Origin: Candidatus Bathyarchaeota archaeon | GTDB taxonomy: Archaea; Thermoproteota; Bathyarchaeia; 40CM-2-53-6 | DNA: 32,699 nucleotides | NCBI GenBank assembly: GCA_005881615.1 | Contig: VBBR01000136.1 | Coordinates: 1-32,699, forward strand | Direction: 5' to 3' | In this document: positions 11,292 through 19,097 of the stretch, piece by piece | Position numbering within the stretch: position 1 is the first letter of the stretch | Layout: every line of letters starts with the position of its first letter | Notes under the pieces: model-generated | Seen by the model: only the letters and a program-made list of their open reading frames with translations | What the model was told of the DNA's origin: nothing | Databases searched by the model: none | Position numbers and translations under genes: made by a program

Positions 11292-11297
11292 CGTTTT

Positions 11298-11650
11298 GAG
11301 GTCTACCTAGTGTTCGGTCTGTTTTTGCACTCGGCTTGCTCTCATCGACTCCTGGGATTACCGTCGTCGTCGGGTTCCCCTTCACTGCTTCACCTGAGAG
11401 CCCTTGCCCCTCAGAGACTGGTAATCTCTTCTCGACAGGGAACGGGTCGAACCTCAACCGCCCCCTCACGCCCGTAGAGTGGTAGCTCGGCCCATTGCCA
11501 GGCAAGGATTTTACGGTGGCCAACCAGCCGGCTATCCCAGTTCATACCCGTCACATGGTCGGAGTCATTCCCCTCATCCCAACGTGACAGGCTCGTACGA
11601 CAACCGCCCTGGCAATCATACTATGTCCCTAACTAATATTCACTAGAGAT
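11298..11650 (-). repeat. Repeat copy 1: tnpB 3'-end/omega-RNA-like element
   Basis: About 353 bases that align over their whole length with 14451-14804 (roughly three-quarters of bases equal by eye) and then stop aligning on both sides. Read on the reverse strand, the right half still reads as the C-terminus of an IS200/IS605-type TnpB: GEAVKGNPTTTVIPGVDES, which is shared with the deleted tnpB at 18792-19075. The left half contains stops and no TnpB zinc finger. A long imperfect hairpin (arms CCTGTCACGTTGG and CCGAC-CAT-GTGACGGG) and a short one (AGAGAT-TACCA-GTCTCT) are conserved with copy 2. No transposase gene is present. The left end supplies an AT-rich TAATATT at 11634-11640 just before the acyl-CoA dehydrogenase region. 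Confidence 0.72.
11634..11640 (+). promoter_or_regulatory. Possible TATA box at the repeat edge, facing acyl-CoA dehydrogenase
   Basis: TAATATT lies about 25 bases before a TTG at 11662 that is in frame with the acyl-CoA dehydrogenase. It falls inside the left end of repeat copy 1, so the element may supply the promoter. Confidence 0.3.
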
Positions 11651-11790
11651 TCCAAAAACCATTGGTACGCGTCAACCGAAGATTTTACAGTGATCCTTTT
11701 TTTGACAAAACTCACATTAAGGACGAGGGTGACGAGAGATTGTTTCGATTGAAGACTGTTGTAGACTCGGGTAGTGAAGATCTCTCTAAG

Positions 11791-12975
11791 ATGAATTTCG
11801 ATGTTTCAGACGAACAAAAGCTTGTCCTAGACGAGGTTGACCGGGCTTGCCGGGAACTCCGCCCGCTGGAGGACCAGGCTTACTTGGCGGGAAAATTCAA
11901 CGATCACCTTGTACCCATTTTCAAGAAAGCCCAGCTCCTCGGGCTTCCCATATCGAGACGCTACGGTGAGGGCCAAGGCGCCGACATTCTCACATATGCC
12001 CTGGCTTTGGAGAGAATTGGCCGAGAAGGAACTGGGGTCCGAACGTTTCTCTCCGGACACGTTTCACTAGGCCAGTTGACAGTGCAAAAGTGGGGCAATG
12101 AGGATCAGAAACAACGCTATCTTCCGCAGGCGACAAGAGGGGAAAAAATAATGTGTTTTGGGTTAACCGAGCCCACCGCGGGCAGCGATCCCACCTCGCT
12201 CCGAACCTCATTCGAGGACAAGGGAACCCACTACCTCTTAAACGGAAGCAAAGCCTGGATTTCCAACGGCAGCATATCCGACACCTCGGTAATATTCGCA
12301 TACCCGAAAGGCAAGCATGATGGAATGTGCGCCTTCATAGTTGAGAAAGCATTCGAAGGCTACTCATCGCAACAACAGAAACACAAGCTAGGAATGCCAA
12401 CCTCGGACACAGGCTCGATCTTCCTAGATAACTGCAGGGTCCCGAAAGAGAATCTTCTCGGCCCTCTTGGAAAGGGTCTGGGTGTCGCCTACTCTGGGCT
12501 AATGAGTGGCAGACTCAGCGTCGCCGCAGGGTGCTTGGGAGTCATCGACGACTGCATTACAGAAGCCGTCAACTACTCGAAGCAGCGAGTACAACACGGC
12601 AAACCGATCGGAAAACACCAACTCGTTCAACGACACATTGGAATCATGTCAACGAATCTGGAAGCGGCCAAGAACCTCGTTTACAAGGCAGCACTACTCA
12701 AACAACATAGTGACGAGGAACCAGAAAACAAAGAACTTCGCGAACACGCAGACATCACCATTGCCCAGGCAAAATATTTCGCCTCAAATGCATCATTCGA
12801 CGCCGCGGACCGAACCGTTCAGATATTCGGCTCAAGCGGATACAGCTTCGAAACCCGAGCGCCCAGACACCTGGTTGACACGAGGGTCTGCCGAATCTAC
12901 GAAGGAACAGACGAGATCATGGTCCAGAAGATCGCAGTGAACCGCCTCGGACAAGACTTCGAAGCATACCGCTAA
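11791..12975 (+). CDS. Acyl-CoA dehydrogenase
   Basis: A 394-residue flavoenzyme from the ATG at 11791, the usual family length, starting MNFDVSDEQKLVLDEV as in the first helix of the family. The FAD loop CFGLTEPTAGSD and the WISNGS strand are present, and the catalytic base is the glutamate in RIYEGTDEIM near the C-terminus. It oxidises an acyl-CoA to the 2-enoyl-CoA and passes electrons to electron-transfer flavoprotein, which the fixABCX cluster 2 kb downstream could provide. The frame is open upstream to a TTG at 11662, adding 43 polar residues; a TATA-like box fits that TTG, so the longer form is possible. The acyl chain specificity cannot be read. Confidence 0.93.
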   Translation: MNFDVSDEQKLVLDEVDRACRELRPLEDQAYLAGKFNDHLVPIFKKAQLLGLPISRRYGEGQGADILTYALALERIGREGTGVRTFLSGHVSLGQLTVQKWGNEDQKQRYLPQATRGEKIMCFGLTEPTAGSDPTSLRTSFEDKGTHYLLNGSKAWISNGSISDTSVIFAYPKGKHDGMCAFIVEKAFEGYSSQQQKHKLGMPTSDTGSIFLDNCRVPKENLLGPLGKGLGVAYSGLMSGRLSVAAGCLGVIDDCITEAVNYSKQRVQHGKPIGKHQLVQRHIGIMSTNLEAAKNLVYKAALLKQHSDEEPENKELREHADITIAQAKYFASNASFDAADRTVQIFGSSGYSFETRAPRHLVDTRVCRIYEGTDEIMVQKIAVNRLGQDFEAYR

Positions 12976-13122
12976 TTCCATACTCAGGGACTGCAGTAGG
13001 CACAACGCTAGTCCCATATGGACACACCACTTTTGGGCAGACTTATTTCCGAGACACGCCGATCTTACCCTTAGAGCCGCGCAGAGTATCGTTTCTTCAA
13101 GAGCTGATCAAGCACGATCCAA

Positions 13123-13497
13123 GTGTCCAGAAAAGCACTAGTGATAGGAGTTCAGTCGGCTCTGAACGTTTTCTTAGCCACATGGCTCTACAATGAATAC
13201 GTTCACAACCAATTCATGCAAGACTACCTAGCCAGCACATTCTCATCTATGAGCTTCGCGCTACCTGTTGGACTACTTGCATCTGCTGCCATTGCAGGAG
13301 GCTCCCTCACCGCTTACTCCAGAAGACACCAAGTCACAAGAGGGCAGATCGCACCGGGTCTGAAGACAGAAGCGTTTGCTGGATCGGCTGAGAAATTAGC
13401 GACCCTAGATACATGTCCGTTCTGCAGCATACCGCTCAAGAATATCTCGGAAAACCGTTTCCAATGTAGGAAATGCCGTAGATACTTCAAGAAATAG
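13123..13497 (+). CDS. Membrane protein with C-terminal zinc ribbon, unknown function
   Basis: A 124-residue protein starting at GTG. Two hydrophobic segments (about residues 5-24 and 43-63) are followed by a basic linker and a C-terminal zinc ribbon with CPFC at 97-100 and CRKC near 115-118. The layout, membrane anchor plus cytoplasmic or extracellular zinc ribbon, is common among small archaeal proteins without assigned function. It lies 147 bases after the acyl-CoA dehydrogenase and upstream of a PIN-like gene. A role cannot be assigned. TatC at 19530-20420 has a similar C-terminal zinc ribbon. Confidence 0.72.
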   Translation: MSRKALVIGVQSALNVFLATWLYNEYVHNQFMQDYLASTFSSMSFALPVGLLASAAIAGGSLTAYSRRHQVTRGQIAPGLKTEAFAGSAEKLATLDTCPFCSIPLKNISENRFQCRKCRRYFKK

Positions 13498-13587
13498 GAT
13501 TCTCTACTCTTCCCCAGAACCATCGACCCGAGAAAGCTTCTAAGGAAGCGTTCGTCGAACCTTTGGGAAACGAAGCGCGCACAAGAA

Positions 13588-13869
13588 ATGCATAGACCTA
13601 CAGTTCTCCTTGACGAACAACTGTTCGGGCTAGATGAATACCTGAGAGATCTCGGTTGGTCAACAACGAAGGTAACCCCGGGAATCACTGACGATGAAGT
13701 CGTCAACCTCGCGAAGGACAACAAATACATCGTGGTAAGCCTCGACAAGAAGCTTCTCAGCAGATGTAGAGTGATGGGCATCCCCTCCGTTGACCTCGGA
13801 CTTGAGGTGCAAGCCAAGATCGTACATGAGTCCCTTCAGAGAATCATAACCAACCAGGTGCCTCCTTGA
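13588..13869 (+). CDS. PIN-like (DUF5615/Mut7-C type) protein
   Basis: A 93-residue protein starting at ATG. It resembles the small PIN-like proteins of the DUF5615/Mut7-C group: VLLDEQLF near the N-terminus gives the first acidic residue, TDDEVVNLAKDNKYIVVSLDKKLL (about 44-67) gives the middle acidic residues and the VVSLDKK strand with a further aspartate. These are predicted metal-dependent RNases, often toxins paired with a small DNA-binding antitoxin. The gene downstream (13904) has a helix-turn-helix-like N-terminus but is larger than typical antitoxins, so the pairing is a guess. Confidence 0.65.
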   Translation: MHRPTVLLDEQLFGLDEYLRDLGWSTTKVTPGITDDEVVNLAKDNKYIVVSLDKKLLSRCRVMGIPSVDLGLEVQAKIVHESLQRIITNQVPP

Positions 13870-13886
13870 ACAATTGTAAGTCACAT

Positions 13887-13892
13887 AGGAGG
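13887..13892 (+). promoter_or_regulatory. Shine-Dalgarno sequence before the 13904 gene
   Basis: AGGAGG lies 11 bases before the TTG at 13904. Strong ribosome-binding sites are rare in this window, and this one supports the TTG start and translation from a shared transcript with the PIN-like gene. Confidence 0.5.
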
Positions 13893-13903
13893 CAGCTCCA
13901 TCA

Positions 13904-14413
13904 TTGAATGCTCAGAAACAAGACGACGCTTCTCAGTATCTTCAAGAAGCGTGTTACTATCTGCTCAAGAAGGGTCTGACAATTGAACAGGTATCAAAAG
14001 CGCTTGAGATCTCAGAGCAAGAAGCGACCCAGCTTCGTCAACAATTCGAATCAAGGCTAGCCACTGGTGACTCAGTCGAGAACGAAGTCGACAGAAACCT
14101 CTGGGAAGATGTCTACAACGACTCTGTCGGCAATGAAAAGATAACCTTCGTGAGGGACAAAGGATTCTATCATTGCAGACGAGACGACTTAGACAAAATG
14201 GAGTCTCCCGCGCTCATGGCAATTTTCGAAACAAGCAAGAAATTCCTGGACTTTGACATGTACAGAAGATACCTGGACAGCAAACCACCAGCTGGGTACG
14301 ATCCGATGGCAATGCAGAGGCAGGTCAAAAGAGCTGTCGACTTGATCGAGCAGATATTGAAACAGAGATGGGAGACCGAAAAATCAAAAGGGAATGACAG
14401 CACGAAAAGCTGA
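13904..14413 (+). CDS. Conserved-looking protein with N-terminal helix-turn-helix, unknown function
   Basis: A 169-residue soluble, highly charged protein starting at TTG behind a strong Shine-Dalgarno site. Residues 17-46 (YYLLKKGLTIEQVSKALEIS) look like a sigma-70 region 4-type helix-turn-helix, and the rest is predicted helical with no recognised motif except a central WEDVYND and a cluster of aromatic residues around 125-130. It follows the PIN-like gene by 34 bases in the same direction. A regulator or adaptor is plausible. The family could not be named, and the downstream end abuts repeat copy 2 by 37 bases. Confidence 0.6.
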   Translation: MNAQKQDDASQYLQEACYYLLKKGLTIEQVSKALEISEQEATQLRQQFESRLATGDSVENEVDRNLWEDVYNDSVGNEKITFVRDKGFYHCRRDDLDKMESPALMAIFETSKKFLDFDMYRRYLDSKPPAGYDPMAMQRQVKRAVDLIEQILKQRWETEKSKGNDSTKS

Positions 14414-14450
14414 CTTTCGAGCCGCCGGAGATGGACCCAGAGCTAAACCC

Positions 14451-14804
14451 GAGGTTCTGTCGAGTCTTCGGTTCGTTTTGAAGACTAGACTTGCTCTCAT
14501 CGACTCCGAGGATTACCGTCGTCATCGGGTTCCCTTTCATTGCTTCACCTGAGAGCCTTGCGCCTCAGAGACACGTGGTCTCTTTTCGGCAGGGAACGGT
14601 CGAACCTCAACCGCCCCCTCACCCCCGTAGCGTGGTAGCTTGGCCCATTGCCAGGCAAGGATTTTACAGTGGCCAACCAACCATCCAACTCGGTTCACGC
14701 CTCTCAGGCGGTCGGAGTCGCTCCCCTCATCCCAACTCGAGAGGCTCATATGACGAACCGCCTTACACGTAATGAGTCATCCCACGAACATAATCGTTAG
14801 AGAT
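14451..14804 (-). repeat. Repeat copy 2: tnpB 3'-end/omega-RNA-like element
   Basis: About 354 bases matching 11298-11650 end to end in the same orientation. Compared with copy 1 it has small insertions and deletions that break the TnpB C-terminal frame (for example one base lost in the GGTTCGACC stretch), so it does not encode a protein. The same hairpins are kept: CCTCTCGAGTTGG pairs with CCGAC-CGC-CTGAGAGG, and AGAGAC-CACGT-GTCTCT. One base pair of the long stem is G-C in copy 1 and C-G here. It separates the HTH gene from fixC. No transposase gene or target-site duplication was identified. Confidence 0.72.
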
Positions 14805-14839
14805 GACCGAAGCTGCGCCAAACAACAACCAACGCTAAC

Positions 14840-14856
14840 CATGGCCATGGCGCCAT
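14840..14856. promoter_or_regulatory. Overlapping palindromes before fixC
   Basis: CATGGCCATG (14840-14849) and ATGGCGCCAT (14847-14856) are two perfect 10-base palindromes sharing three bases, placed just upstream of an AT-rich ATAAACC (about 14867-14873) that could serve as the fixC TATA box. This is the position of an archaeal operator, but no regulator is identified. Confidence 0.35.
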
Positions 14857-14901
14857 GCTAAACCCGATAAACCCCACGACCAGCGCCAAATAGAGACAGA
14901 G

Positions 14902-18693: not shown

Positions 18694-18791
18694 GTTTCCT
18701 TGAACACACAGGGTTTTTGTACCAATCATGCAAACAGTCTCGTCAACTCATCGTCGGATGCCTCTCTGACTTATGATTAGGATTTTGGCTT

Positions 18792-19075
18792 TTGTCGTTT
18801 AATGTGTTGGCTGTTAAGTCGGTCTGGCAATACTACGTTTCATCTAACGATATTCTAGGCCTGCTGGGAGTGTTCAGGAGGATAGTTAACGAGTCTCTGC
18901 GGATAGGCATAGCCAACGATGCATCATCGCTGAGAAAGCTCTCACTCCTCTCCTACAACCAGCTCGCCCGTTAGAGGCGCAAGGCGGAGCAGTTGAAGCC
19001 GTGAAGGGGAACCCGACGCCTACGGCAATCCCCGGAGTCGATGCCCCGAAGCTAACTCAACCAAACAAGAGTTAA
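18792..19075 (+). pseudogene. tnpB (IS200/IS605 family) with internal deletion
   Basis: From TTG 18792 to TAG 18974 the frame encodes 60 residues resembling the N-terminus of archaeal TnpB proteins (LLGVFRRIVNESLRIGIAND, then SSLRKLSLLSYNQLAR). Directly after the stop, in another frame, 18974-19075 encodes the C-terminal tail EAQGGAVEAVKGNPTPTAIPG-VDAPKLTQPNKS-stop. A complete TnpB is roughly 400 residues, so some 300 residues including the RuvC-like and zinc-finger parts are missing, and the junction near 18970-18976 is out of frame. The tail matches the protein-like end of the repeats at 11298-11650 and 14451-14804, in opposite orientation, which ties the three together. TnpB is assigned from the pattern of residues, not from a search. 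Confidence 0.6.
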
Positions 19076-19089
19076 CAGAACCGTAAACA

Positions 19090-19097
19090 GTTAAAGC
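19090..19097 (+). promoter_or_regulatory. TATA box for tatA
   Basis: GTTAAAGC about 37 bases before the tatA ATG at 19130. It lies just beyond the end of the tnpB remnant. Confidence 0.35.

Follow-up and report, generated by a model that had tools for sequence, protein, structure and literature searches.

In Spizellomyces punctatus, Fanzor "ghost" elements of the Spu-1 type have inverted repeats and lack the nuclease gene, but still contain the omega-RNA/right-end region. The same genome has nuclease copies whose inverted repeats are related and which lack a transposase, and the ghost omega-RNAs are reported to function with nuclease supplied in trans (PMC10432273). These elements are the closest precedent for a repeat that occurs twice in the window, the 32,699-nt stretch of DNA analysed here (contig VBBR01000136.1, or C137, of the Candidatus Bathyarchaeota archaeon assembly GCA_005881615.1; this own assembly, G000, comprises 2.23 Mb in 193 contigs and is 89% complete). 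The repeat is a miniature inverted-repeat transposable element (MITE). It is non-autonomous, has neither transposase nor nuclease, and derives from a family of tnpB-only transposons in soil Bathyarchaeia. Like the Spu-1 ghosts, the MITEs are nuclease-less inverted-repeat elements with a putative omega-RNA/right-end region, and nuclease copies reside in the same genome. Unlike Spu-1, which is eukaryotic, Fanzor-related and flanked by mariner-like TA target-site duplications (TSDs), they are archaeal and have IS6-like ends and 8-bp TSDs. The own-genome nuclease is an archaeal TnpB rather than a Fanzor, and a putative footprint of a transposon-associated motif (TAM) outside the TSD is a further feature of the MITEs that distinguishes them from Spu-1.

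Other described systems share part of this organisation. As in IS200/IS605 transposons and their palindrome-associated transposable element (PATE) derivatives (PMC3119063), tnpB is present, internal deletions give short forms that keep their ends, a T-rich motif lies 5′ at the target, and an omega-RNA is expected from the tnpB 3′ end and the right end. IS200/IS605 elements and PATEs, however, have neither inverted repeats nor TSDs and the motif is read by a Y1 transposase (PMC3119063), whereas 20-bp inverted repeats and 8-bp TSDs are found here. These features rule out membership of IS200/IS605, the context implied by the first-pass annotation of this locus; both the MITEs and the tnpB genes instead have the inverted repeats and TSDs of IS6-type DDE transposons. 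In IS6/IS26 the ends open with GG, position 7 is a G, and 8-bp TSDs are recorded for members (PMC6807381). The MITEs resemble IS6/IS26 and archaeal IS6-like elements in all three respects and in a candidate partner transposase of the DDE (IS240) type, but differ from them in that neither the MITEs nor the tnpB elements encode a transposase, and in that the partner transposases have an N-terminal SWIM zinc finger and belong to elements of 2.5-5.7 kb with cargo. A TnpB-family nuclease inside an inverted-repeat, TSD-forming element is also known from eukaryotes and their viruses, where Fanzor1 is a passenger in mariner, IS4-type and Sola2 transposons, sometimes without a transposase (PMC3627910). 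No prokaryotic TnpB in such an element was found in the open-access papers searched, which does not in itself prove novelty.

The two window copies share one orientation, can be aligned over their whole length (166 nt at 83%, 74 nt at 91% and 44 nt at 84%) and lose similarity outside the element, just as the first-pass annotation had described. The repeat is real, but its limits, fixed by terminal inverted repeats, TSDs and empty orthologous sites, are wider than those first noted; the tnpB sense is the minus strand of the window (Table 1). With copy 1 as query, 33 matches were obtained in the own assembly, of which 13, query included, span most of the element (at least 12 further near-full copies), a repetition well above what chance would give. 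The remaining matches form a series of ~70-bp stretches that adjoin tnpB genes or are themselves remnants of such genes. Across the genus, 42 copies were aligned.

Read in the tnpB sense, the element opens with the left end GGCACTGTCAACTC and closes with the right end GAAGACTTGACAGAACC; the family as a whole is characterised by terminal inverted repeats GGCACTGTCAACTC..GACTTGACAGAACC and 8-bp TSDs. When ends were paired in the regions from the own genome, exact duplications of 8 bp emerged 11 times, and none of 9 or 10 bp. Inverted repeats of ~20 bp together with an exact 8-bp TSD were found for 32 elements, 11 of them in the own genome; L124, L093 and L268 were removed from the element table as chance pairings. 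Orthologous loci in the genus differ in occupancy: the copy 1 insertion is present in G000, G014, G015 and G017 and absent from G013, G004, G005, G006 and G010, and that of copy 2 is present in G000, G014 and G013 and absent from G004, G005, G006, G010 and G015. At both empty sites the duplicated 8 bp occurs once, the sense sequence being GTGAGTTTTG / TCAAAACG / TTATATCAC for copy 1 (G013 and G004) and GGGGTTTA / TCGGGTTT / AGCTCT for copy 2. It is on its short length, lack of a transposase, terminal inverted repeats, TSDs, multiple copies and insertion polymorphism that the repeat is classed as a MITE, and its copy number and its presence or absence in sister species agree with the earlier suggestion that it is retained or mobile.

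Intact tnpB genes, which the earlier annotation had proposed to look for elsewhere in the genome, were found on C43 (L033), C47 and C178. The intact elements are ~1.28 kb long, contain a single open reading frame (ORF), have the ends GGYTCTGTTAACTTATCGTCGG ... GAGTTAACAGAACC and are flanked by exact 8-bp duplications; no Y1 (HUH) tnpA lies inside these single-ORF elements, free-standing Y1 tnpA not having been searched for genome-wide. Their products match the Pfam TNB model PF07282, which finds 12 places in the own genome, and resemble the ISDra2 TnpB structures 8h1j and 8bf8 by sequence similarity; the OrfB_IS605 model PF01385 gave no match in the own genome. The RuvC D-E-D triad and the Cys4 zinc finger are retained in nearly all of 25 open copies, the motif check being confined to open copies, as some homologues contain stops. 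All the hallmarks of TnpB (triad, Cys4 and TNB domain) are thus found in full-length relatives elsewhere, and the window copies encode no TnpB. Over its last ~165 nt the MITE aligns to tnpB 3′ ends plus right ends (70-91% over up to 165 nt), and its first ~20 nt match the left ends of tnpB elements. Derivation of the 5′ half from the N-terminus of the IS6-like transposase, with which it shares a VKSxxGNG similarity, or from that of tnpB was considered, but gave no significant alignment. Elements organised in the same way are found in soil Bathyarchaeota metagenome-assembled genomes (MAGs), in Thaumarchaeota and in one Asgard MAG, hits that suggest a soil bathyarchaeon as the host. Elements with tnpB only, GG..CTG ends, an 8-bp duplication and a 5′ TTG were seen in Asgard (L160 2945-4168 and L172 1145-2360) and in Thaumarchaeota (L157, L163 and L167), the duplication of L163 matching at 7/8 positions.

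Conservation among the 42 copies (alignment A1) is higher in the 3′ half, positions 181-360, with a mean identity of 91-95%, than in the 5′ half, with 75-85%. Both hairpins proposed from the two window copies, together with their compensatory changes, recur across the family. Hairpin 1 (CCTGTCAC/GTGACGGG) is 92% paired over the 42 copies and has both-side changes at 3 pairs, the G-C to C-G swap being seen in 4 copies; hairpin 2 (GAGAC/GTCTC) is 97% paired, and 2 of its pairs have changed on both sides, the first being A-U in 26 copies but G-C in 8 others. Over four local hairpins, these two included, 90.6% of cells were paired and 35 had changed on both sides, compared with 14.1 +/- 3.0 double-change cells for shuffled partners (0/500 shuffles reached 35) and 5-17 for slid partners. 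Since kinship among the copies inflates such counts, the covariation is taken as good evidence, though not as final. Applied to the complete alignment, RNAalifold returned a long-range fold with little covariation support, so only the local hairpins are claimed. Searches of Rfam in gathering and E-value modes gave no match to the element. Conserved hairpins are thus combined with an origin from the tnpB 3′ end and right end, as in an omega-RNA.

In IS200/IS605 elements the first base past the right end is where the guide begins (PMC10711439). A guide copied in this way from the flank of the MITE would correspond, at the empty site, to the duplication plus the right flank, and TTR stands directly 5′ of it. 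Among the 32 tnpB-derived elements with an exact TSD, read in tnpB-sense orientation, TTR was found directly 5′ of the TSD on the tnpB-left side in 28 and TR in all 32, and TTR at the mirror position on the opposite side in none (0/32; background 0.038 per position, P about 4e-36). The motif is present at 17/19 short nuclease-less elements and 11/13 full elements. Two orthologous insertion pairs in the table, L284/L289 and L131/L152, bring the number of independent events to ~30; L289 reads GTG, compared with TTG in its ortholog L284. MITE copies outside the exact-TSD table, for some of which the left end was set automatically and two of which are near-repeats of tabulated insertions, have TTR in 12/21. 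Scaffold-free controls were sought among unpaired inverted-repeat ends in the own genome, which gave no convincing pairs. The putative right-end guide matches a site with a TAM-like motif directly 5′. Since TTR occupies the position required of a TAM for a right-flank guide, the sequence gives good support to the view of the first-pass annotation that the repeat is an omega-RNA-like remnant whose nuclease is missing.

The mobiliser is probably an IS6-like DDE transposase. The partner elements noted above were found in same-class relatives and encode an IS240-type DDE transposase with a SWIM zinc finger between matching ends (for example, GGCTCTGTTAACTCTT ... GAGAGTTAACAGAACC in L269) flanked by exact 8-bp TSDs; their ends were located via the end motif in larger regions, 1.5-kb flanks having given mostly noise. 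These ends are near-identical to those of the MITE and tnpB elements, GGYWCTGTYAAC ends (GG at the start, G at position 7) and 8-bp TSDs being common to both sets. The IS6-like elements carry cargo genes, among which no tnpB was detected.

Some of this cargo could be recognised by eye, ORFs in L241 (2375-7637) resembling a DNA methyltransferase and a specificity subunit; L266 (2113-7775) has ORFs of similar size to those of L241, and L269 (2112-6524) an 857-aa ORF. In two genomes, two different IS6-like transposons lie head to tail (L239, 315-4408 and 4417-7501; L240, 4228-9543 and 9552-13174). Each tandem pair shares one 8-bp duplication between and around its members (AGCGAAGA and TGCCGCGA, respectively), as though the second transposon had landed precisely on the border of the first.

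With a probability of about two in three, we consider that the MITE is mobilised in trans by an IS6-like transposase, keeps an omega-RNA scaffold and borrows TnpB from intact relatives. The DDE transposase (IS240-domain, SWIM zinc finger), with which the MITE has inverted repeats and 8-bp TSDs in common, would act on it in trans, and the tnpB 3′ end and right end would be retained because they encode a functional scaffold. A transcript would exit through the right end, carrying host sequence as guide (for copy 1, the minus-strand reading of the window bases below 11300), and this putative guide matches the unoccupied site with TTR directly 5′. TnpB supplied by an intact relative at another genomic locus would process and bind the MITE RNA, the complex would cut chromosomes lacking the insertion next to TTR, and repair from the occupied copy would restore or spread the element. 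Insertions that lack the motif would be unprotected and lost more often. We also lean slightly toward the broader proposal that in archaea TnpB moved from Y1 transposons into IS6-like inverted-repeat elements, where RNA-guided cutting of empty sites, acting also in trans for nuclease-less MITEs, selects the insertions that persist. The trace of such selection at the population-genetic level would be a TAM at a constant distance from the element, exactly equal to one TSD (8 bp).

A TnpB gene drive has been described for IS200/IS605/IS607, in which the guide records the insertion site, cutting of empty sites spreads the element and the transposase picks the TAM (PMC11870625). The same benefit is proposed for the MITEs, with the difference that a motif-indifferent transposase is expected and TnpB would be borrowed. 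In IS200/IS605 the motif is a requirement of the transposase, so that finding a TAM there is uninformative about TnpB. To our knowledge, no motif requirement has been noted for an IS6-like carrier transposon. If the proposal is true, the MITEs provide a natural experiment on the benefit of TnpB, with the motif at 28/32 insertions, always on one side and even where the nuclease gene is missing; retention or homing and guide-RNA parasites of TnpB would become testable from genomes alone, and the family would parallel the Fanzor ghost loci in prokaryotes and supply small TnpBs whose motif, (T)TR, is relaxed.

Several findings weigh against the proposal of a trans-mobilised, TnpB-borrowing MITE. 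Most copies have an open C-terminal frame, and the 3′ conservation may partly stem from coding sequence. The origin of the MITE's first ~225 nt was sought and no source was identified. The PF13610 transposase is absent from the own assembly (89% complete) and present in the congener G005, from which we infer mobilisation in trans. Among tnpB elements without an exact TSD, whose left ends were called automatically, TTR is found at only 5/31. Finally, IS6-like tnpA elements, which lack tnpB, themselves show a one-sided TTR in 8/21 (P 8e-5; L227, L248, L249, L250, L258, L259, L266 and L269, mostly TTTG), so the transposase may contribute a mild preference.

A stronger version of that preference, in which TTR is wholly the target choice of a trans-acting IS6-like transposase that handles its two ends asymmetrically and the omega-RNA region is merely inherited, could also draw on the left and right inverted repeats, which often differ slightly (GGCW vs GGTT). 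We consider it unlikely. TTR is missing from 13/21 tnpA elements, all five of the same order among them, and the tnpB-derived and tnpA elements differ in its frequency (Fisher P 2.6e-4). Its side is independent of tnpA orientation, yet is fixed on the left in 28/28 TTR-bearing tnpB-derived elements. Several tnpB elements with near-identical ends have TTR on the left only, and where inverted-repeat positions 13-16 are swapped between families the motif stays on the left. Alternatively, TnpB might act at insertion, a TnpB-transposase complex picking TTR sites, so that the motif reflects targeting rather than retention or homing. An oriented strong motif at a fixed distance would be equally expected, and the IS200/IS605 transposase does couple the TAM with the insertion site (PMC11870625); a new copy's guide does not yet exist before insertion, however, the MITEs encode no TnpB and a physical partnership of TnpB and transposase is not known, and we regard this explanation as improbable. 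Neutral decay, with the MITEs as dead deletion products of tnpB elements and their hairpins and conservation as leftovers of common descent, would suit the degraded ends of both window copies, the decayed TSD of copy 1 and the non-independence of covariation counts among related copies, but is very hard to reconcile with ~40 copies over many species, insertion polymorphism and exact TSDs, a 3′ half more conserved than the 5′ half, covariation above all shuffled and slid controls, and TTR in 17/19 short elements.

Table 1. Coordinates of MITE-related features in the window (sense, tnpB sense).
Feature	Position	Strand	Remarks
Copy 1 of ~395-bp element	11300..11696	-	Right (guide-side) end 11300, left end ~11696; ends degraded, GGTCTACC / ACAGTGATCC
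Copy 1 TSD, right-end side	11292..11299		Plus CGTTTTGA = sense TCAAAACG; partner at ~11697-11705 decayed
TAM-like TTTTG (sense), directly 5′ of copy 1 ancestral TSD	11706..11710	-	Same bases in G013 and G004 empty sites
Copy 2	14453..14859	-	Right end GGTTCTGTCGAGTC at 14453; left end degraded, ~14859
Copy 2 TSD, right-end side	14445..14452		8 bp, AAACCCGA; exact match to 14860-14867
Copy 2 TSD, left-end side	14860..14867		8 bp, AAACCCGA; single in G004, G010 and G007 empty sites
TAM-like TTTA (sense), directly 5′ of copy 2 TSD	14868..14871	-	Kept in empty sites
Copy 1 putative omega-RNA scaffold	11300..11465	-	tnpB-3′-end-derived region + right end
Copy 2 putative omega-RNA scaffold	14453..14617	-	tnpB-3′-end-derived region + right end
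Third related element, internally deleted tnpB element	18738..19082	+	BLAST to L033, tnpB N-terminal match

In the third related element of the window the first ~60 tnpB codons are fused to the last ~110 nt and the right end. Its TSD (GCAAACAG/GTAAACAG) lies at 18730-18737 and 19083-19090, and the site is empty in six sister species (read in G013 and G005). Between the two MITE copies, a small ORF at 13123-13497 has a possible zinc ribbon (CPFCSIPL...FQCRKCRRYF) and hydrophobic stretches, and gave no Pfam match. A second MITE family, of 351 bp, is represented by three near-alike own-genome copies (L052, 2303-2653 and 9684-10034; L065, on C152), two of which have exact duplications, suggesting recent mobility.

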